DNA from: Aestuariivivens sediminicola
GTDB taxonomy: Bacteria; Bacteroidota; Bacteroidia; Flavobacteriales; Flavobacteriaceae
Assembly: GCF_022662015.1 (NCBI RefSeq)
Contig: NZ_JAKMCM010000006.1
Span: forward strand, 124,001 to 188,000
Direction: 5' to 3'
DNA: 64,000 nt
Position numbers and translations under genes: made by a program. This document shows positions 16,072 through 53,380 of the stretch, one piece after another. The notes beneath the pieces were generated by a model. It was not told the DNA's origin. It worked only from the letters and a program-made list of their open reading frames with translations, and ran no database searches. The number at the start of each line of letters is the position of its first letter. Positions within the stretch are counted from its first letter, which is position 1.

Positions 16072-17496
16072 TTAGCAATCCGTTAAGTGCACGCCTACGG
16101 CCAGCCCTCCTTCGCTTGTCTCCTTATACTTGGTGTTCATGTCTTTTGCGGTTTCCCACATGGTCGATACGACTTTGTCGAATGGAACTTTTGCATTACT
16201 GGGATTTGTATCCAAGGCGAGTTCGGCAGCGTTAATTGCCTTAATGGCGCCCATGGCGTTCCGTTCGATACATGGTATTTGCACCAAACCACCGATCGGG
16301 TCACAGGTAAGGCCTAAATGATGCTCCATGGCAATTTCTGCCGCAATCAACACTTGCTCCGGGGTGCCACCCAATAATTCGCAAAGTGCCGCTGCCGCCA
16401 TTGCTGAAGAGACTCCAATTTCAGCCTGACAGCCCCCCATCGCAGCACTTATAGTGGCGCCTTTCTTAAAGATACTTCCAATTTCACCGGCCACCAGCAG
16501 AAATTTTTTGATATGCTGGAAGTCTGCTTCATGATTTTCTATAACCATATAATACATCAATACAGCAGGAATGACACCTGCACTTCCATTTGTGGGCGCA
16601 GTAACAACACGTCCCAAAGCCGCATTCACCTCGTTTACGGCCAGAGCGAAACAGCTTACCCATTTTAAAATTTGTCGAAACTTAACTTCTGTGTTTCTAA
16701 TACTCTGTAGCCATTCTTGTGGTGAATTATAGGGCATATCACCCTTTAAGTTTCTATAGGTGTCAAATGCACGTCGTCTTACCTGCAAACCTCCGGGTAA
16801 ATTCCCTTCGGTGTGACAACCTATATACATGCACTCCAACATTGTGTTCCAAATACGATGTAATTCATGATCAATGGTTTCTGTCGCTCTAATGGACTTT
16901 TCGTTTTCAAGGACCACTTCAGAAATAGAGGTGTTCAATTGTCTACAGTATTTGAGTAAATCCGCGCCGGTTTCGATCGGGTAGGGAAAGGTGCAGTAAA
17001 ATATAATCTTGTTAGCTTTGGCCCTTTTGCGTTCTTCCTGAACGACAAAACCTCCGCCTATGGAATAATAGGTGGCATTCGTTTTCCGACCATGGATAAC
17101 AGCCGAAAACTGAATTCCATTGGAATGAAACGGCAAAAACTTTTTATTGAAGACAATTTCGTTTTCGGGCTTGAATGTTATTTTTCGTTCACCATTAAGT
17201 AGGATGCTGTTTGTATTTTTTATCTCCTTTATAATTTGGTGAATTTGCTCAGTAGGAATCGTTTCCGGGTTAGCCCCGCTCAATCCTAGCATGACAGCAA
17301 AATCTGTGGCATGACCTTTTCCAGTAAGTGATAAGGAACCATATAGATTTACGGTAATGCGCTCGACCTTGTCAAACTTATTGGACTTTTTTAACGATGC
17401 AATCCAACGTTCTGCAGCCCGCCAGGGGCCTAAGGTATGTGAACTGGAGGGTCCTATACCAATTTTTAACATGTCAAAAACCGAAATGCATTCCAT
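16072..17496 (-). CDS. sdaA: L-serine ammonia-lyase (L-serine dehydratase)
   Basis: Fe-S enzyme that deaminates L-serine to pyruvate. The 474-aa single chain has an N-terminal beta domain ([20 protein letters not shown]) and a C-terminal alpha domain with [17 protein letters not shown], the cluster-binding Cys segments [18 protein letters not shown] and [15 protein letters not shown], and the extreme C-terminal Cys in GVHLTDC. That Cys in E. coli-type enzymes inserts into the active site. Length and motifs are normal. It is transcribed alone. Confidence 0.97.
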
Positions 17497-17666
17497 TTAC
17501 AATGTTTGTTTAGGTGAAGGGATTTTGAATTGTAAATATAAGCGCTTTTTGGGGCTTGTAAATCAAAAGCAACATTGTTTTATCTGGAAATTAGTCGAAT
17601 CTAAACGTTCTATTTCACTTCTGATAGCTGCAAACCTGAATTAAAATAAGTGTAATAAACGATATA

Positions 17667-17707
17667 TGACACTGTGTCAGTTTGCTTTTGTTGGCATAAT
17701 CATTGAC
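17667..17707 (+). promoter_or_regulatory. candidate regulatory palindrome and promoter of dnaK
   Basis: A perfect 13-nt inverted repeat, TGACAC-T-GTGTCA (17667-17679), is followed 12 nt later by TTGGCATAATCATTGAC (17691-17707), which has GG-N10-GA spacing resembling a -24/-12 style or specialised promoter. The block ends 53 nt before the dnaK ATG. It is not CIRCE. I infer a stress-regulator operator next to the dnaK promoter; the identity of the regulator is unknown. Confidence 0.45.
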
Positions 17708-17760
17708 TTATACAAACCGAATTAAAAGATTTTAGAACACAATAAAAAGTCAAATATATC

Positions 17761-19671
17761 ATGAGTAAAATTATTGGAATAGATTTAGGAACAACCAATT
17801 CGTGCGTTTCCGTGATGGAAGGTAACGATCCGGTTGTAATACCAAATGCCGAAGGCAAGCGTACAACGCCATCGGTAATTGCATTCGTTGAGGGAGGCGA
17901 AATTAAAGTTGGAGATCCGGCGAAAAGACAAGCGGTAACAAACCCCAAGAAAACAGTTTATTCAATTAAACGTTTTATGGGTAATAAATATTCAGAATCT
18001 CAGAAAGAGGCCGATCGAGTGCCTTACAAAGTGGTGAAAGGTGATAATAACACACCGCGAGTGGATATTGATGGCCGTCTTTATACCCCTCAGGAATTAT
18101 CGGCTATGATTCTTCAAAAAATGAAGAAAACTGCTGAAGATTATCTTGGTCAGGATGTAACTAGAGCAGTTATTACTGTACCGGCTTACTTTAATGACTC
18201 ACAACGTCAGGCAACCAAGGAAGCCGGAGAGATTGCCGGACTTAAGGTAGAACGTATCATCAATGAACCAACAGCGGCTGCTTTGGCCTATGGATTGGAT
18301 AAAAAGGGGAAAGATCAAAAAATTGTTGTATTCGATTTTGGTGGTGGCACCCATGATGTATCCATTCTTGAACTGGGTGATGGCGTCTTTGAAGTATTAT
18401 CTACAGATGGTGACACCCACCTGGGAGGTGACGATGTTGATGAAAAAATCATTAACTGGTTGGCAGATGAATTTAAAAAGGACGAGGCAATGGATTTGAG
18501 ACAAGACCCTATGTCATTGCAACGTTTAAAGGAAGCTGCTGAAAAGGCAAAAATTGAATTGTCATCTTCTACCCAAACCGAAATCAATCTGCCTTATATA
18601 ACAGCTACTGCCAGTGGACCAAAACACCTGGTACGTACCTTAACACGTTCAAAATTCGAACAGTTGATTGATGATTTAGTGAAGCGCACCATCGCTCCGT
18701 GTGAATCTGCTCTGAAAGCTGCGGGCTTGAGTAAGAGTGATATTGATGAAATTATTTTAGTTGGTGGTTCAACACGTATTCCTGCAGTACAGTCTGCCGT
18801 CGAAAAATTCTTTGGAAAAGCACCGAGTAAAGGGGTGAATCCGGATGAGGTTGTATCCTTGGGAGCTGGTATTCAAGGTGGTGTATTAACAGGTGATGTT
18901 AAGGATGTCCTCTTATTGGATGTTACGCCATTATCTCTAGGAATCGAAACCATGGGTAATGTCTTCACCAAGTTGATAGAAGCCAATACCACGATTCCTA
19001 CCAAGAAATCACAGATTTTCTCAACAGCGGCAGATAATCAGCCTTCTGTGGAAATTCATGTGTTACAAGGAGAACGCGCCATGGCAGCCGACAACAAAAC
19101 CATAGGACGTTTCCATTTGGATGGTATTCCACCCGCGAGACGTGGTACCCCGCAAATTGAAGTGACATTCGATATTGACGCCAATGGTATTATAAAAGTT
19201 TCAGCGGAAGATAAAGCAACCGGTAAGAAACAAGATATCCGAATTGAAGCATCTTCAGGATTAACCGAAGAGGAAATCGAAAAAATGAAAGCCGATGCCG
19301 AGGCAAATGCTGAAGCGGACAAAAAGGCCGCTGAAAAAGCACAGAAGTTAAATGAGGCAGATTCAATGATTTTCCAAACAGAGAAGCAGTTGGAAGAGTT
19401 TGGTGATAAATTATCTGAGGATAAGAAAAAACCAATCCAGGATGCATTGGAAGAGTTGAAAAAGGCCTATGAGTCTAAAGACTTAGAAGTTATTGAACCA
19501 GCTTTGGAAAAAATAAATGAAGCTTGGAAACAGGCTTCTGAAGAAATGTACAAAGCTCAAGCTGAAGCACAGCAGACCGGATCTGCTGCTCAGGACTCCG
19601 ATGCTGGACAGCAGGAGGGTAAGGCAGAAGGAAGTGATGTGGAAGACGTAGACTTCGAAGAAGTCAAGTAG
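17761..19671 (+). CDS. dnaK: molecular chaperone DnaK (Hsp70)
   Basis: ATP-dependent chaperone of 636 aa. Nucleotide-binding domain with [10 protein letters not shown] (residues 5-14), [34 protein letters not shown] and the [11 protein letters not shown] adenosine motif. The substrate-binding domain contains [18 protein letters not shown] and the lid follows, ending in the acidic tail [12 protein letters not shown], equivalent to the conserved EEVD-like end. No grpE or dnaJ is next to it. An inverted repeat about 80 bp upstream is a candidate heat-shock control element, and a bidirectional terminator lies downstream. Confidence 0.99.
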
Positions 19672-19695
19672 CCTGTCCTGAGCTTTGTCGAAGGG
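19672..19695. repeat. REP-like intergenic motif immediately after dnaK
   Basis: The segment CCTGAGCTTTGTCGAAGGG right after the dnaK stop resembles the widespread CCTGAGCTTGTCGAAGG extragenic motif found in many bacterial genomes. Only one copy of this form is in the window. The array at 56333 contains a different family (CATTCCTGC/GCAGGAATG). Confidence 0.45.
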
Positions 19696-19741
19696 TTAAC
19701 TTCGGATAAGATAATCGTTTAATCTTTAATACTTTAAAAAA

Positions 19742-47650: not shown

Positions 47651-48976
47651 ATGAAAAAACTAGCATTACACTGGAAGATTATTATAGGAATGGTTCTTGG
47701 CATCCTGTTCGGATTCATCATGAATTCTGTTGATGGCGGCAAGGGATTTGTATCTGATTGGATCGCACCATTTGGAACCATCTTTATCAACCTCTTAAAA
47801 CTCATTGCAGTGCCCTTGATTTTGGCTTCTTTAATTAAGGGGATATCTGATTTAAAGGACATTTCTAAGATAAAGTCCATGGGATTGCGCACCATTTCCA
47901 TTTATATATCAACGACAGTGGTGGCCATCATTATCGGATTGAGTATTGTTAATGTGATCCAACCCGGTAAAGGAATGCCCCAGGACACGATAGAAAAAAT
48001 TAAATTGAAATACGAAAACGATGCCGGAGTTACCGATAAATTAATGGAGGCAACAGCCCAGAAAGATGCGGGTCCGCTGCGGGCATTGGTCGATATTTTT
48101 CCCAGTAATATTTTTAAAGCCTTTGCTGAGGCTTCCATGCTGCAGGTGATCTTCTTCGCTTTGTTTGTAGGTATCTGTCTCTTGCTCATTGGTGAGAAAA
48201 AAGCAAAACCCTTAATTAATTTTTTCGATTCACTCAACGAGGTGGTTATGAAAATGGTAGATTTGATCATGCTCTTTGCGCCCTATGCCGTTTTCGCGCT
48301 GTTGGCTAATGTGATCATTGCCTTCGACGACACTGAAATACTGGTAAAGCTTCTATTTTATTCCTTGTGTGTTGTTGGAGGACTCATTGTAATGATTCTT
48401 TTTTATCTGACCCTCGTGGGGGTATTTGCCAAAAAATCACCCTTGTGGTTCTTAAAAGAAATAAGTCCTGCCCAGCTCCTGGCTTTTTCTACCAGCAGCA
48501 GTGCGGCTACTTTACCCGTTACCATGGAGCGCGTTGAAGAACATTTAGGCGTAGACAAGGAAGTTTCAGGTTTTGTCTTGCCTGTTGGTGCCACGGTAAA
48601 TATGGACGGAACGAGCCTGTACCAGGGCATTGCGGCCGTATTTATCATGCAGGTTATTTGGCCTGAGGGATTGACGTTTACCAATCAGTTGGTCATTATT
48701 TTAACAGCCTTATTGGCATCAATCGGCAGTGCTGCTGTGCCAAGCGCAGGAATGGTCATGCTTGTAATTGTTTTGGAATCAATAGGATTTCCGGGAGAAT
48801 TACTGCCTATTGGATTAGCACTTATTTTTGCGGTAGACCGGCCTTTGGATATGTGCAGAACGGTAGTCAATGTTACCGGAGATGCCACCGTATCCATGCT
48901 GGTAGCCAAATCTTTGGATAAGATTCATGATCCTAAACCTAAAGAATGGGATGACCATTATGATGAAGTCAAATAA
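47651..48976 (+). CDS. dicarboxylate/amino acid:cation symporter (DAACS family)
   Basis: GltP/DctA-type transporter that imports glutamate, aspartate or C4-dicarboxylates with Na+ or H+. The 441-aa protein has about eight membrane helices and two re-entrant loops. Signature residues are FSTSSSAATLPVTMERVEEH (HP1, near 281), VNMDGTSLYQG (TM7, NMDGT) and SAAVPSAGMVML (HP2). Substrate choice cannot be read reliably. It lies 34 nt upstream of the GshB-like ligase, so glutamate or aspartate uptake may be tied to that operon. Confidence 0.95.
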   Translation: MKKLALHWKIIIGMVLGILFGFIMNSVDGGKGFVSDWIAPFGTIFINLLKLIAVPLILASLIKGISDLKDISKIKSMGLRTISIYISTTVVAIIIGLSIVNVIQPGKGMPQDTIEKIKLKYENDAGVTDKLMEATAQKDAGPLRALVDIFPSNIFKAFAEASMLQVIFFALFVGICLLLIGEKKAKPLINFFDSLNEVVMKMVDLIMLFAPYAVFALLANVIIAFDDTEILVKLLFYSLCVVGGLIVMILFYLTLVGVFAKKSPLWFLKEISPAQLLAFSTSSSAATLPVTMERVEEHLGVDKEVSGFVLPVGATVNMDGTSLYQGIAAVFIMQVIWPEGLTFTNQLVIILTALLASIGSAAVPSAGMVMLVIVLESIGFPGELLPIGLALIFAVDRPLDMCRTVVNVTGDATVSMLVAKSLDKIHDPKPKEWDDHYDEVK

Positions 48977-49010: not shown

Positions 49011-50048
49011 ATGAACGTTTGTTTTATCATGTATCCCTGGGATCAGATTGATCCGGAAAACGATTCCACACTGGCCTTGATCAAGGAGTGTGCAAAGAGA
49101 GGCCATGGTTTAGCCATGTGTACCCCTGCCAATTTAACCATACGCAATAGCGTTACCAACGCTTTTTGTACGGTTCTTAATCGTATGGAAAAAGTACCGT
49201 CCAGCCTCAGGGCCTTCTATAAAAAAGCCGATTTAAGAGAGGAAATGTTGCCTTTGGCCGGCTTCGATGCCATTTTCTTTAGGGCAAATCCACCCCTGGA
49301 TCCTATCATGTTGAATTTCTTAGACTCTGTAAAGGATGATGTGTTTATCATCAATTCATTGGAAGGCATGCGTGAGGCCAATAACAAGCTGTATACCGCA
49401 GCCTTTGGTGATGCCCACAGCAATATAATTCCAGCGACTCATGTGTCTAAAAACAAACGATACCTCATTAGGCAGATCAAGGAATCCAAAGCCGATAAAA
49501 TGATTTTGAAGCCTTTGAACGGTTATGGGGGTTCGGGCGTTATTTTAATCGAAAAATCGGCCATGAGTAACATCAATTCCTTGTTAGACTTCTACATTAC
49601 CAATAGCGATGGCTCATCCAATTACGTTATTTTGCAGGATTATATAGAAGGGGCGGACCAGGGGGATATTCGAATCTTACTGCTGAACGGGGAACCTATT
49701 GGTGCCATGAAACGGGTGCCCGGAAGTGATGATCATCGCTCAAATGTCTCTGCGGGGGGCAGTGTACAAAAACATAATTTAACGAAAACGGAAAAGGCAC
49801 TTTGCAAGCAGATAGGCCCTAAACTGGTGAATGATGGTCTTTATTTTGTGGGTATCGATGTTATTGGTGGCAAGCTTGTTGAGGTCAATGTCATGTCCCC
49901 TGGTGGTATCACCTACATGAACAAAGTGTATAAGCCCAAGGTTAAAATTGAAGAAAAGGTTATCGATTTCCTTGAAAGTAAGGTTTTGGATAAGTTACAG
50001 GCTTTTGACAGGCGTGCGCGATTGAGAAAAACCGTTGAAGATGCATAG
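49011..50048 (+). CDS. GshB-like ATP-grasp amide ligase
   Basis: ATP-grasp protein of 345 aa with the glutathione-synthetase-type domain order: N-terminal Rossmann-like part (1-120), central ATP-grasp with KMILKPLNGYGGSGVILIEK (163-182, phosphate loop), GDIRILLLNGEPIGAMKR (218-235), SNVSAGGS (244-251), and the metal-binding GIDVIGGKLVEVNVMSPGGI (281-300). GshB would add Gly to gamma-Glu-Cys. The window also has bshA, and no gshA is seen, so another acceptor is likely. It heads the tight five-gene operon ending at 53380; its stop overlaps the next start by 8 nt. Confidence 0.9.
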   Translation: MNVCFIMYPWDQIDPENDSTLALIKECAKRGHGLAMCTPANLTIRNSVTNAFCTVLNRMEKVPSSLRAFYKKADLREEMLPLAGFDAIFFRANPPLDPIMLNFLDSVKDDVFIINSLEGMREANNKLYTAAFGDAHSNIIPATHVSKNKRYLIRQIKESKADKMILKPLNGYGGSGVILIEKSAMSNINSLLDFYITNSDGSSNYVILQDYIEGADQGDIRILLLNGEPIGAMKRVPGSDDHRSNVSAGGSVQKHNLTKTEKALCKQIGPKLVNDGLYFVGIDVIGGKLVEVNVMSPGGITYMNKVYKPKVKIEEKVIDFLESKVLDKLQAFDRRARLRKTVEDA

Positions 50049-50559
50049 CACAAGGGCCCTTAAAAAAGCATTGATGATAGTTTTGATGTGTTTGATAGGG
50101 TTACAATTGCATGGCCAGAACAGCACCGTTGAACAATGGTATCAGGTCATTTCAAAATTGCGGAATGATGTGAACCATAATTTTTTAAAAACTTTAAGAC
50201 CGGCAATGGCAGATTTTGAGATGCTCTTTTTAAATAAGGATTACGCTGATAAGGCCATGACGTATGCCAATACGAAATGGGATGGTATCGATAAGGTCCC
50301 GGATCATAGTATGAAACCACCGCATGACACTGATAAAGTACGCTTATTAATGGCGACAAAGCAGGACTTATTGGCTTCGATAACCCATGGTTTACCTGAA
50401 GATTACAGCACACTTGGGAAATACTTAAAAGACGATGTCGTGGTTTATGGACTACAATATGTTGATGATAATGGTGAGGAACAAAAAACAAGAGCCGCTT
50501 TTTTTTATGTCAATGATCGATGGATCATCATACCTCAAACATTCAAAGCCTTTCAATAA
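50041..50559 (+). CDS. small secreted protein of the ligase operon
   Basis: Protein of 172 aa with a signal peptide (ALKKALMIVLMCLIGLQLHG, then Q as in many Bacteroidota signals). The mature part is mostly helical first (VEQWYQVISKLRNDVNHNFL), then a C-terminal beta segment (VVVYGLQYVDDNGEEQKTRA, NDRWIIIPQTFKAF). I recognise no family. The ATG at 50041 overlaps the ligase stop (50048) and its own stop is 3 nt before the sulfurtransferase ATG, so translation is probably coupled. An in-frame TTG at 50035 is an alternative start. Confidence 0.8.
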   Translation: MHSTRALKKALMIVLMCLIGLQLHGQNSTVEQWYQVISKLRNDVNHNFLKTLRPAMADFEMLFLNKDYADKAMTYANTKWDGIDKVPDHSMKPPHDTDKVRLLMATKQDLLASITHGLPEDYSTLGKYLKDDVVVYGLQYVDDNGEEQKTRAAFFYVNDRWIIIPQTFKAFQ

Positions 50560-50562
50560 GCC

Positions 50563-51381
50563 ATGTCAGATTTAGAAATAAAACATCCTGTTGTCTCTGT
50601 TCACTGGCTTCATGAAAATTTGAATGCCGAGAATATAATCATTCTTGACGGTACCATTGATAAAGGGTCCAGTACCATCGCGGACCAGCTTCCACAGAGC
50701 AGATATTTCGACATTAAGCATAAATTCAGCAATACATCCGATCCCTTTCCCAATGCCTTTCCTTCCGAGGCACAATTTCAAACAGAAGCTCGAAACCTGG
50801 GTATTAACATCGATAGTGTCATTGTGGTATATGATGATAAAGGCATCTATTCGAGTGCCAGGGTGTGGTGGATGTTTAAGGCTTTTGGCCATACCAAAGT
50901 CGCGGTACTCAACGGAGGGTTCCCGGCCTGGGTAAAGGCCGGTTATCCGGTTGAACCCATGAGACCCTACAGCGGTCCAAAAGGTAATTTTAAGGCGCAG
51001 TTTCGACCCGACACCATGGTGTTCTTTGATGCTATGAAAACCATTTCTGCCGACCGAACCGCCAGGATTTTAGATGCCCGATCGGCGGCACGTTTTAATG
51101 CTGAGGTAGCCGAACCTCGAAAGGGATTGCGGAGCGGGCATATTCCAAATGCCGTCAGCTTACCCTATACAGCACTCATGGATGAGGAGCTGTTAATGGA
51201 TAAAGAAGCATTGGAAAAGAGGTTTAATACTATCGCTGATAAGGATGACAAACTTGTGTTTTCCTGTGGTTCCGGTATTACGGCCTGTATCCTGGCCTTG
51301 GGAGCCGAAATTTCAGGCTATAAAAACTGTGCCGTTTATGATGGTTCATGGACCGAATGGGGCACATTAGTAGAAGCATAA
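50563..51381 (+). CDS. rhodanese-type sulfurtransferase (3-mercaptopyruvate sulfurtransferase-like)
   Basis: Two-rhodanese-domain enzyme of 272 aa. The N-terminal domain is inactive (YDDKGIYSSARVWWMFKAFG, VAVLNGGFPAW). The C-terminal domain carries the active cysteine near residue 235 in FSCGSGITACILALG; the CGSG[IV]T loop is typical of mercaptopyruvate rather than thiosulfate sulfurtransferases. It transfers sulfane sulfur to thiols or thioredoxin. It ends 2 nt before the N-formylglutamate amidohydrolase start. Its role in the operon is unclear; a thiol-containing substrate of the ligase would fit. Confidence 0.9.
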   Translation: MSDLEIKHPVVSVHWLHENLNAENIIILDGTIDKGSSTIADQLPQSRYFDIKHKFSNTSDPFPNAFPSEAQFQTEARNLGINIDSVIVVYDDKGIYSSARVWWMFKAFGHTKVAVLNGGFPAWVKAGYPVEPMRPYSGPKGNFKAQFRPDTMVFFDAMKTISADRTARILDARSAARFNAEVAEPRKGLRSGHIPNAVSLPYTALMDEELLMDKEALEKRFNTIADKDDKLVFSCGSGITACILALGAEISGYKNCAVYDGSWTEWGTLVEA

Positions 51382-51383
51382 TT

Positions 51384-52214
51384 ATGGAAAAATTATCTGT
51401 AAACGAGATTATTTATAAAATAAGACAGCAGCATATCTTTGAAGCGGTGTCTTCGGATTATTCATTTCGGATTAAAATTGCAGATTATGTACCCTATGTT
51501 TGTGGCGCAGTACATGATGGCCATCAGTTTAGAAAGGAGCTTTGGGATTCGTGTCTGCATACCGCATATGAGCGCTGGTATGAAGAGGATCCTGAAACCA
51601 GGACGATGGTTCAATCACATCCTATAGTTATTGCGGGATGCGACTCCAGGTTCGAATATGATTTGAACAGGGTTCCGGAAGAGGCCGTTTTTGTTACAGC
51701 CTGGGGTAAACCGTTGTGGAAAGAGCCACTCCCTGAGGTGATGGTTCAAAAGAGCCTCGAAAAGCACGCCAATTTCTATAAGGTGGTCTTTGCCCTCATA
51801 CAGACTGTTGAATCCCGGTTTGGGTTCTGTACGGTTTACGATATGCACAGTTATAACTGGAAACGTTGGGACAGGGAAGTGCCGACCTGGAATTTAGGCA
51901 CAAGCAATATTGATAACAAGCGGTTTGGCATGGTGGTGGAGCAATGGCGTCAAAGTCTTTCTCAAGTCCAGTTCCCCAGAGGTATAAAATCGACCTCAAA
52001 AATTAATGACACCTTTCAGGGCAATGGGTATTTTTTAAGATTCATTACTCAGAATTTCAAAAATACCTTAGTTTTGGCAACCGAAATAGCTAAAGTGTAT
52101 TGCGATGAGTACGATCAGATCATTTATCCGGAAGTGGTTAAGGCCGTTGAAACGCAATTGGCGGAACGTATTGAAAAGCATGCTATTGAAACATTCGAGA
52201 CCTTTAAAAGATAG
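51384..52214 (+). CDS. N-formylglutamate amidohydrolase-like (HutG-type) enzyme
   Basis: Zinc amidohydrolase of 276 aa from the ATG at 51384. Family signatures: VHDGHQF, the GCDSRFEYDLNR segment with conserved Arg residues, the DMHSYN metal-binding motif, and WNLGTSNIDN. Classic HutG hydrolyses N-formylglutamate in histidine breakdown, but no hut genes are near. In this operon it more likely removes an N-acyl group or cleaves an amide on a glutamate-like product. An upstream in-frame ATG (51348) lies inside the preceding gene and is unlikely. Confidence 0.88.
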   Translation: MEKLSVNEIIYKIRQQHIFEAVSSDYSFRIKIADYVPYVCGAVHDGHQFRKELWDSCLHTAYERWYEEDPETRTMVQSHPIVIAGCDSRFEYDLNRVPEEAVFVTAWGKPLWKEPLPEVMVQKSLEKHANFYKVVFALIQTVESRFGFCTVYDMHSYNWKRWDREVPTWNLGTSNIDNKRFGMVVEQWRQSLSQVQFPRGIKSTSKINDTFQGNGYFLRFITQNFKNTLVLATEIAKVYCDEYDQIIYPEVVKAVETQLAERIEKHAIETFETFKR

Positions 52215-52219
52215 ATAAA

Positions 52220-53380
52220 ATGAAGATGGACCGGCAGGTATCAACAGAAATTCTCCTAGACATCGATAACGCTATCGATGCTTTAGTTAAGCAAATTGAA
52301 CTGCTCAGTTATGTTAATCCCATAAATATAGAGGAGGAAAAGGAGCGATTCTTTTCATCGAAATATGTAAAGCCTCCGGTTTTTGAATATCCCGAAATAA
52401 ATTTCGATCGGTTTAGATTACATAGGGAGTTATTTACGCAACCCCTGGAACTGATCGAGGACGAACAGATTAAAAACCTTTATGAGGAGATCATTTACGC
52501 CTATTCGGGCCTCATACAATGTATTGAGACCATAGGCACTGAAAAAAAATTCTATTATAATTGCCTGCACTGTTTTGGTACGCCCACGGAAACAGATGTC
52601 GAAAATGCCAAATTCATTCTGCATTTTGAAGACGAAGATGATCAGGACCCTATTTTTAAACCTAAATATTCGGCTCAGCAGGCCGAATCGTTTTTCAGAT
52701 CCTTTTCGCAACGGTACGACTTTAGTTATGCCATAAAACATTCCAGTCAGATCTCGGCCATTGCCATGGTGTTGAACAACGTTAAAACCCTGGTTTTAAA
52801 TACCAATTATACGTTTTCTGATAACGAAATTGCCGTCCTGACCAACCATGAGATAGGGGTACATATGGTGACAACAATGAATGGTATGTTACATCCTTTG
52901 AAAATATTTTCACATGGTTTTCCCAATTATGAGGAAACGCAGGAAGGCTTGGCGGTTTTTGCAGAATACATGAGTAATAACCTGACCATACGACGATTGA
53001 AAGAATTGGCCTACCGCGTTATTGCAGTGGATAGTCTGGCCAAGGGGTACTCCTTCTCCAGGACCTTCAGGTTATTGCACAATCAGTATGATCTGGACCG
53101 TGAAAATGCCTATTATATTACGGTTCGTGCCCATCGGGGTGGCGGGTTTACCAAAGATTATTTGTACTTAACCGGATTGAAAAAGGTGTATGACTATTAT
53201 CACGAGGGCAAGGATTTAAGTCTTCTGTTAACCGGTAAAGTGACCATGGAGTATCTTGATGTAATCGAAGTCCTGATTGACAAGGGTCTTGCTGTTCCTG
53301 CCAGGCATATTACAGATGCCTATGCCGAAAATAACAATACCAACAGGACCGTAGATTTTATTTTAAAGAGTCTCAAATAA
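52220..53380 (+). CDS. DUF1704 / QEGLA-motif zinc peptidase (MATCAP-related)
   Basis: Protein of 386 aa of the DUF1704 family, named in databases flavohemoglobin expression-modulating QEGLA motif protein. It shows the gluzincin-like zinc site HEIGVH (210-215, HExxxH) and the distal EETQEGLA (238-245), with Tyr/Arg-rich surroundings (TVRAHRGGGFTKDYLYLTG). Eukaryotic members (KIAA0895L/MATCAP) are carboxypeptidases that remove C-terminal tyrosine from tubulin, so a carboxypeptidase role is likely. It starts 5 nt after the amidohydrolase gene and is the last gene of the operon. Confidence 0.9.
   Translation: MKMDRQVSTEILLDIDNAIDALVKQIELLSYVNPINIEEEKERFFSSKYVKPPVFEYPEINFDRFRLHRELFTQPLELIEDEQIKNLYEEIIYAYSGLIQCIETIGTEKKFYYNCLHCFGTPTETDVENAKFILHFEDEDDQDPIFKPKYSAQQAESFFRSFSQRYDFSYAIKHSSQISAIAMVLNNVKTLVLNTNYTFSDNEIAVLTNHEIGVHMVTTMNGMLHPLKIFSHGFPNYEETQEGLAVFAEYMSNNLTIRRLKELAYRVIAVDSLAKGYSFSRTFRLLHNQYDLDRENAYYITVRAHRGGGFTKDYLYLTGLKKVYDYYHEGKDLSLLLTGKVTMEYLDVIEVLIDKGLAVPARHITDAYAENNNTNRTVDFILKSLK

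Follow-up and report, generated by a model that had tools for sequence, protein, structure and literature searches.

The locus

The window considered here is a 64,000-nt stretch of the genome of Aestuariivivens sediminicola (assembly GCF_022662015.1, contig NZ_JAKMCM010000006.1, positions 124,001–188,000), and the coordinates given for its features are positions within it. Five + strand open reading frames (ORFs) lie at 49011–53380, with successive gaps of -8, 3, 2 and 5 nt; in order, they encode a GshB-like ATP-grasp ligase, a small secreted-type protein, a two-domain rhodanese of the sulfurtransferase type, an FGase-type metallohydrolase and a putative zincin carboxypeptidase of the DUF1704/MATCAP family. 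A preliminary description of the locus had given the number, strand, coordinates and spacings of these genes, all of which match our ORF check; the Pfam families are, in order, GSH-S_N/GSH-S_ATP, none for the secreted protein, two Rhodanese domains, FGase and MATCAP. Absent from its list is an SDF-family symporter gene (441 aa; 47651–48976, + strand; Pfam SDF 418 bits), which ends 34 nt before the ligase gene. Because this gap is short and SDF genes lie upstream in most related loci, the operon probably has six genes, of which the symporter gene is the first.

The core of the gene set is three genes, those for the ligase, the FGase-type hydrolase and the DUF1704 peptidase. The ligase (345 aa; 49011–50048) has the GSH-S_N and GSH-S_ATP domains and passes NF009110, the model of a subfamily named glutathione synthetase (PRK12458), with 456 bits against a cut-off of 408. 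The FGase-type enzyme (276 aa; 51384–52214), predicted to have a carboxypeptidase A-like fold, matches PF05013 with 49.2 bits (cut-off 28.9), and the DUF1704 protein (386 aa; 52220–53380), a short form that lacks an N-terminal extension, matches PF08014 with 331 bits (cut-off 27). On the 3' flank there is a convergent gene that starts 35 nt away. What we take to be the Bacteroidetes-type promoter pattern has a single, chance-level match in the window and none at the operon.

Conservation of the core and its accessories

When the same 148 Bacteroidota genomes were searched for DUF1704 (PF08014) and for the ligase (NF009110), the former matched 10 genomes and the latter 61, with scores above 390 bits only in the same 10 that have PF08014. 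Nine of these carriers exceed the 408-bit cut-off (G002 scores 396.5), and the best score outside the 10 is 193.9 bits, for a canonical-looking GshB in G076. The co-occurrence has a Fisher p of 1e-15, a value that ignores relatedness, seven of the 10 carriers being from one family. The ligase gene adjoins the DUF1704 gene in all 10 carriers and an FGase gene does so in nine, in one case as a fusion (L013, 667 aa); the sulfurtransferase gene stands beside the core in three, and the secreted protein gene in one, which is the window. In G053 there is no FGase gene in a 17.5-kb stretch; a gene for an AstE/AspA-type N-acyl-amino-acid hydrolase lies 87 nt 3' of its ligase gene, and an amino-acid permease gene lies upstream.

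The loci nearest to the window were sampled as the best 80 of at least 570 confirmed DUF1704 relatives, mostly from Flavobacteriaceae, and our main counts use the 71 of these that have at least 6 kb of upstream sequence (nine with less were omitted). The ligase is present in 70 of the 71 and the FGase-type hydrolase in 70, both together in 70; the one locus that lacks them is L126 of Arenibacter. The expectation in the preliminary description that the genes are kept together beyond close relatives thus holds for the three-gene core; all five occur together only in the window and in four of the 71 loci. The gene neighbourhood is far from chance, and the core is a conserved, widespread module.

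Among plasmid and secondary-chromosome records, 127 match DUF1704, and 12 of them were opened (L154, which is broken, is uncounted). By profile search the ligase gene is adjacent in nine of the 12 (L134–L141 and L150) and not in the stretch in three (L133, L151 and L152). The seven records from rhizobia and Roseateles XES5 have, by annotation and profile, the order FGase, long DUF1704, ligase, with the FGase gene in all seven, and in Photobacterium DA100 and GJ3 the ligase gene is followed by an FGase::DUF1704 fusion. Such fusions are present in L013, which is from a Bacteroidota family other than that of the window, and in L133, L134 and L150 from Vibrionaceae; because they occur in several lineages, we infer that the two hydrolases form one functional unit.

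The ligase and DUF1704 trees, which took in 15 of the 80 loci, divide alike into a clade A (the window and Photobacterium) and a clade B (rhizobia and some Bacteroidota). The ligase tree, which is unrooted and contains only two canonical rows, has 24 rows in clade A, nine in clade B and canonical GshB as a third clade. In G103 and G118 a single run of genes holds a ligase and FGase of clade A next to a DUF1704 and ligase of clade B, which suggests compatible functions for the two clades. Composite operons, to which each clade contributes a ligase and clade B alone a DUF1704, are seen in L014 (7028–12724) and L015 (5478–10378). The rhizobial clade B trio of FGase, "QEGLA motif protein" and "glutathione synthase" resembles that of the window in that the three families are adjacent on the same strand in 7/7 records. 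It differs in that its ligase is of a separate clade and comes last rather than first, its stretches have no SDF or sulfurtransferase match, and its DUF1704 proteins are about 620–675 aa long, with an extra N-terminal region of 229–272 aa. The Photobacterium module has the same three families and a clade A ligase that is 60 percent identical to that of the window, but its hydrolases are fused, a DUF413/MaoP gene lies upstream, and there is no SDF or sulfurtransferase match.

The extra N-terminal region of the clade B DUF1704 proteins was considered as a possible decayed FGase domain. It aligns by hhalign with clade A FGases over 193 colinear columns (P 0.004, probability 8 percent) and with clade B FGases over 30 columns (P 0.022, probability 2 percent), while P values for five profiles of unrelated families were 0.18–0.75; Pfam at E up to 10 finds no FGase in this region in 10/10 of the proteins. 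Two clusters of other composition were also seen. On a Desulfocapsa plasmid (L148, 2986–6666) a GshB-like ligase gene occurs with genes for a C45 peptidase and a radical SAM protein, possibly a different amide-forming cluster, and about 5 kb 3' of the DUF1704 gene of the Arenibacter locus L126 there are genes (16412–19737) whose starts resemble, by eye, those of an alpha-E, transglutaminase and ATP-grasp peptide-tagging set.

The remaining genes of the operon vary more among loci. An SDF gene is present in 6/10 of the Bacteroidota carrier genomes; of the 71 nearest loci, 59 have one on the same strand in the 6 kb upstream, and in 51 it directly precedes the ligase gene. The closest solved structure to the symporter of the window is a bacterial aspartate transporter (9bgz, E 1.7e-91), and the motif LDMxRTxVNVTGD, which contains residues that we take to bind substrate, is retained; its score against the NCBIfam model GltP is 262 bits, below the cut-off of 638. 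The sulfurtransferase (272 aa; 50563–51381; two Rhodanese domains, 94 bits) has a CGSGIT loop with Cys235, presumably the CGSGxT motif of 3-mercaptopyruvate sulfurtransferases. Its nearest solved relative is of that E. coli type (1urh, E 1e-51), and it scores 198 bits against the equivalog model NF008557 (cut-off 250). The preliminary description saw in it one of two features that make this version unusual; it is in fact a common accessory, found in 45 of the 71 loci. The other feature, the 172-aa secreted-type protein (50041–50559, from the ATG at 50041), is a rare passenger as had been supposed, occurring in 4/71 loci; it has an N-terminal hydrophobic, signal-like stretch as judged by eye and no match in a Pfam scan. 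In 23/71 loci a 108-aa protein is encoded between the sulfurtransferase and FGase genes (e.g. L078, 8820–9146), and in 10 of the 80 loci the sulfurtransferase carries this domain as a C-terminal fusion (L053, 7955–9115, and nine others; profile match in 10/10). It is TerB-like at most, the best TerB match (E 0.008, in two of four proteins scanned) being below the cut-off. All three proteins, the sulfurtransferase, its TerB-like partner of related loci and the small secreted one, are accessories specific to certain lineages. A role of the operon in anti-phage defence was considered and rejected: none of the five operon proteins matches a PADLOC model at E 0.001, and aroC, a core gene, lies beside the locus in 45/71 loci.

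The core enzymes

E. coli GshB (1gsa) matches the ligase at E 3e-39. We compared 80 clade A and 10 clade B ligases with canonical GshB, the latter represented by five rows that include G076 (read with a stop) and L147 (with an over-long start). In E. coli numbering, K125, K160, D208, R210, R225, R233, N235, D273, E281 and N283 are kept, while the canonical D9 is replaced by Tyr in the clade A ligases and by Asn in those of clade B, and T288 is Gly. Since the catalytic residues are kept and the D9 and T288 positions are changed, the ligase appears from these alignments to have an intact catalytic engine and an altered acceptor pocket.

Glutathione biosynthesis was considered and judged unlikely. 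Neither family of γ-glutamylcysteine ligase (PF04107, PF04262) was found in the host genome, which is estimated to be 100 percent complete; among 18 carriers PF04262 has no match in any and PF04107 none in 16, and both are missing in 9/10 of the Bacteroidota carriers of the 148-genome sample. Because the host and 16 of the 18 carriers lack the enzyme, synthesis of glutathione by the ligase is unlikely on genomic grounds, yet two of the three NCBIfam models so named are passed, the exception being the equivalog TIGR01380 (237 bits, cut-off 299). A broader thiol system can be imagined, in which glutathione or a similar tripeptide is the product of the ligase, its sulfur is dealt with by the sulfurtransferase and its breakdown falls to the hydrolases. 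The retention of E. coli GshB residues in a member of the GshB family and the frequency of the sulfurtransferase gene would suit it, but the lack of γ-glutamylcysteine ligase and the replacement of D9 and T288 do not, and 7/7 Aquimarina loci retain the core without a sulfurtransferase; we consider it quite unlikely.

The predicted model of the FGase-type enzyme is closest to N-formylglutamate amidohydrolase 2q7s (Z 24.1) and to 2odf (Z 21.5), followed by carboxypeptidase A-like enzymes at Z of 12.5 or less, including succinylglutamate desuccinylase (Z 11.0). Its profile found no match among the sequences of solved structures at E up to 1, although the fold comparison did find these relatives. 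The motifs SR-x3-D-x-NR and D-x-HS, presumably the counterparts of those of aspartoacylase, are invariant in seven diverse rows. N-acyl glutamate or aspartate is the kind of substrate on which enzymes of the FGase and AstE/AspA families act. An assignment as HutG finds no NCBIfam match at E 0.001, and the scanned neighbours in the window are not hut genes.

In the DUF1704 protein HEIGVH (210–215) and QEGLA (241–245) stand where the preliminary description had placed them, and H210, E211, H215 and E242 (the last within QEGLA) are invariant in alignments of 10 and of 20 rows. Against TIGR02421, the model of the QEGLA motif protein, it scores 312.7 bits in a match that spans almost the whole profile, below the curated cut-off of 338.65. 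To our knowledge, members of the DUF1704 family have been characterised only as tubulin carboxypeptidases. The predicted model superimposes on human MATCAP (TMCP1; 7z5g) with Z 24.5 and an rmsd of 3.0, and a second structural family, DUF885, matches at Z 16.0 (3iuk). The human and window enzymes are alike in fold, in the HExxH glutamate and in the downstream metal glutamate, and unlike in that the latter is a 386-aa, operon-encoded protein with 22 percent identity over the 292 aligned residues. According to PMC10499314, the TMCP1 mutants E281A and E316A are inactive; these positions would correspond to E211 and E242 of the window protein, because the HExxH and EGLA motifs match. The same source describes eukaryotic DUF1704 relatives as deglutamylases as well as detyrosinases, able to take tyrosine, glutamate and polyglutamate off the tails of tubulin, and reports that TMCP1 acts with similar efficiency on recombinant α-tubulin ending in Tyr, Ala, Glu or Gly. 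The protein of the window thus has the predicted fold and the catalytic residues of the MATCAP family and is a putative carboxypeptidase. The DUF1704 gene of L082 and the FGase gene of L123 are each split into two frames, whether by decay or by an error of assembly. The sole DUF1704 match in a phage collection, Pseudomonas phage Y1 (L153, 5001–5555), is an unverified record that may be contamination.

Possible function of the module

We tentatively favour, with a little less than even confidence, the view that this operon with its three-gene core runs a build-and-trim cycle in the cytoplasm, the object of which is a small molecule with an amide linkage that is probably acidic. The SDF symporter, to judge from its nearest solved relatives, would import aspartate or glutamate. 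The ligase, whose catalytic residues are kept in a host without gshA, would activate a carboxylate at the expense of ATP and so couple the amino acid to a putative acceptor. The DUF1704 enzyme may take the C-terminal residue off again, as its eukaryotic relatives do on tubulin tails, and the FGase-type enzyme may cut the other amide, by which an acidic amino acid would carry an N-acyl or N-formyl group, so recycling the building block. The amino acid that is cycled, probably an acidic one, would more likely be carried by an N-acylated small molecule than by a protein C-terminus. An acidic substrate is hinted at, rather than measured, by the aspartate transporter match of the symporter, the substrates of the FGase and AstE/AspA families and the deglutamylation performed by eukaryotic DUF1704 enzymes. 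The build-and-trim cycle is favoured by the confinement of ligase and DUF1704 to the same 10/148 genomes, by the FGase::DUF1704 fusions, by the matching A and B clades and by the AstE/AspA-type substitute in G053. The preliminary description proposed that the operon makes and remodels a peptide, amide or thiol-containing metabolite. The amide part of this stands, in that a ligase from a family that forms amides is linked, in Bacteroidota as well as Pseudomonadota, to two enzymes from families that hydrolyse them, with FGase::DUF1704 fusions; the thiol part is not borne out, a glutathione-type product being disfavoured by the carrier genomes.

Several observations weigh against the build-and-trim cycle. 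The substrates of the ligase, the FGase-type enzyme and the DUF1704 protein are all putative; the ligase passes, besides NF009110, the glutathione synthase equivalog NF003573 (281 bits, cut-off 272), and G130 and G150 have a PF04107 gene. The core is also incomplete in places: Vibrio HDW18 has its FGase::DUF1704 fusion without a ligase, Pseudoalteromonas and Legionella have DUF1704 alone, without ligase or FGase, and the Arenibacter locus L126 has DUF1704 and two SDF genes without either partner (the best ligase score in that genome is 94 bits, so that no ligase of this group was found there). Finally, the SDF gene is missing within 6 kb in 12/71 loci and is not directly before the ligase gene in 20/71.

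The transporter and two hydrolases might instead break down imported acyl-peptides, the ligase having a side activity or making a storage form. Such a scavenging operon would be in keeping with the fact that hydrolases are two of the three core enzymes and that the usual upstream gene encodes an uptake-family transporter, but the ligase is no less constant than the hydrolases and no peptide transporter was seen among the window neighbours scanned, and we regard this alternative as unlikely.

The likeness of the DUF1704 model to MATCAP raises the further, rather unlikely, alternative, also put forward in the preliminary description, that the substrate is a protein: the ligase would add residues to an acidic tail and DUF1704 would remove them, in the manner of TTL/TTLL and MATCAP, while the FGase-type enzyme trims the modified end. 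The breadth of C-terminal residues accepted by TMCP1 (PMC10499314) would fit, as would a DUF413/MaoP or similar ORF with a strongly acidic C-terminus that lies upstream in Vibrio HDW18 and in the two Photobacterium records. Small molecules, however, suit an FGase-family hydrolase better, and the Flavobacteriaceae operons have no recurrent candidate for such a protein substrate. The MaoP-type gene stands 5' of the ligase or fusion gene, beside a divergent LysR gene (L134, 4604–8122; L150, 3547–7131; L133, 5687–8113), and the copy in GJ3, identified by likeness rather than by a family scan, ends in tyrosine like α-tubulin. An arrangement of MaoP beside a LysR gene is also that of E. coli, and the ligase genes of the two Photobacterium records are 119 and 113 nt away (the fusion gene of Vibrio, 75 nt), so the link may be accidental. 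With three records, gaps of 75–119 nt and a LysR–MaoP pair that is possibly ancestral, the MaoP-type neighbour is a weak substrate lead.

In Photobacterium damselae, according to PMC10308900, A0J47_RS17020 ("GshB") is up 38.4-fold and A0J47_RS17025 ("QEGLA motif protein") up 27.5-fold in a comparison of 1 with 3 percent NaCl, and both genes, which have neighbouring tag numbers, are on chromosome II. Because the tags are adjacent and the same pair in two other Photobacterium records is a clade A ligase followed by a fusion, this "GshB" is probably a DUF1704-linked ligase and not a glutathione synthase. The induction at low salinity points to an osmotic role. One may go further and see in the operon a bacterial root of tubulin-code chemistry, in which the ligase writes and a MATCAP-type carboxypeptidase erases residues of an acidic tail (in Vibrionaceae the candidate being DUF413/MaoP) in answer to salinity, but this we hold to be quite improbable.

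Amidoligase–peptidase operons in which an ATP-grasp ligase stands beside peptidases of unrelated folds were reportedly predicted by Iyer et al. in Mol Biosyst in 2009; the present trio, which the preliminary description likewise took to have been reported before, may be among them. Of the papers listed in a literature search, only PMC10308900 was found to name members of the trio. Public annotation already shows the trio, to which the version in the window adds the transporter, the sulfurtransferase and the rare secreted protein. Two annotations could be mended once the substrate is identified, that of "glutathione synthase" in genomes without γ-glutamylcysteine ligase and that of "flavohemoglobin expression-modulating protein". 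Bacterial relatives of MATCAP adjoin a ligase gene in all 10 Bacteroidota carriers, 70/71 near relatives and 9/12 plasmid records, and the identity of the substrate would show what MATCAP-type chemistry does where there is no tubulin; it may also add a new metabolite to those of marine and rhizobial bacteria.

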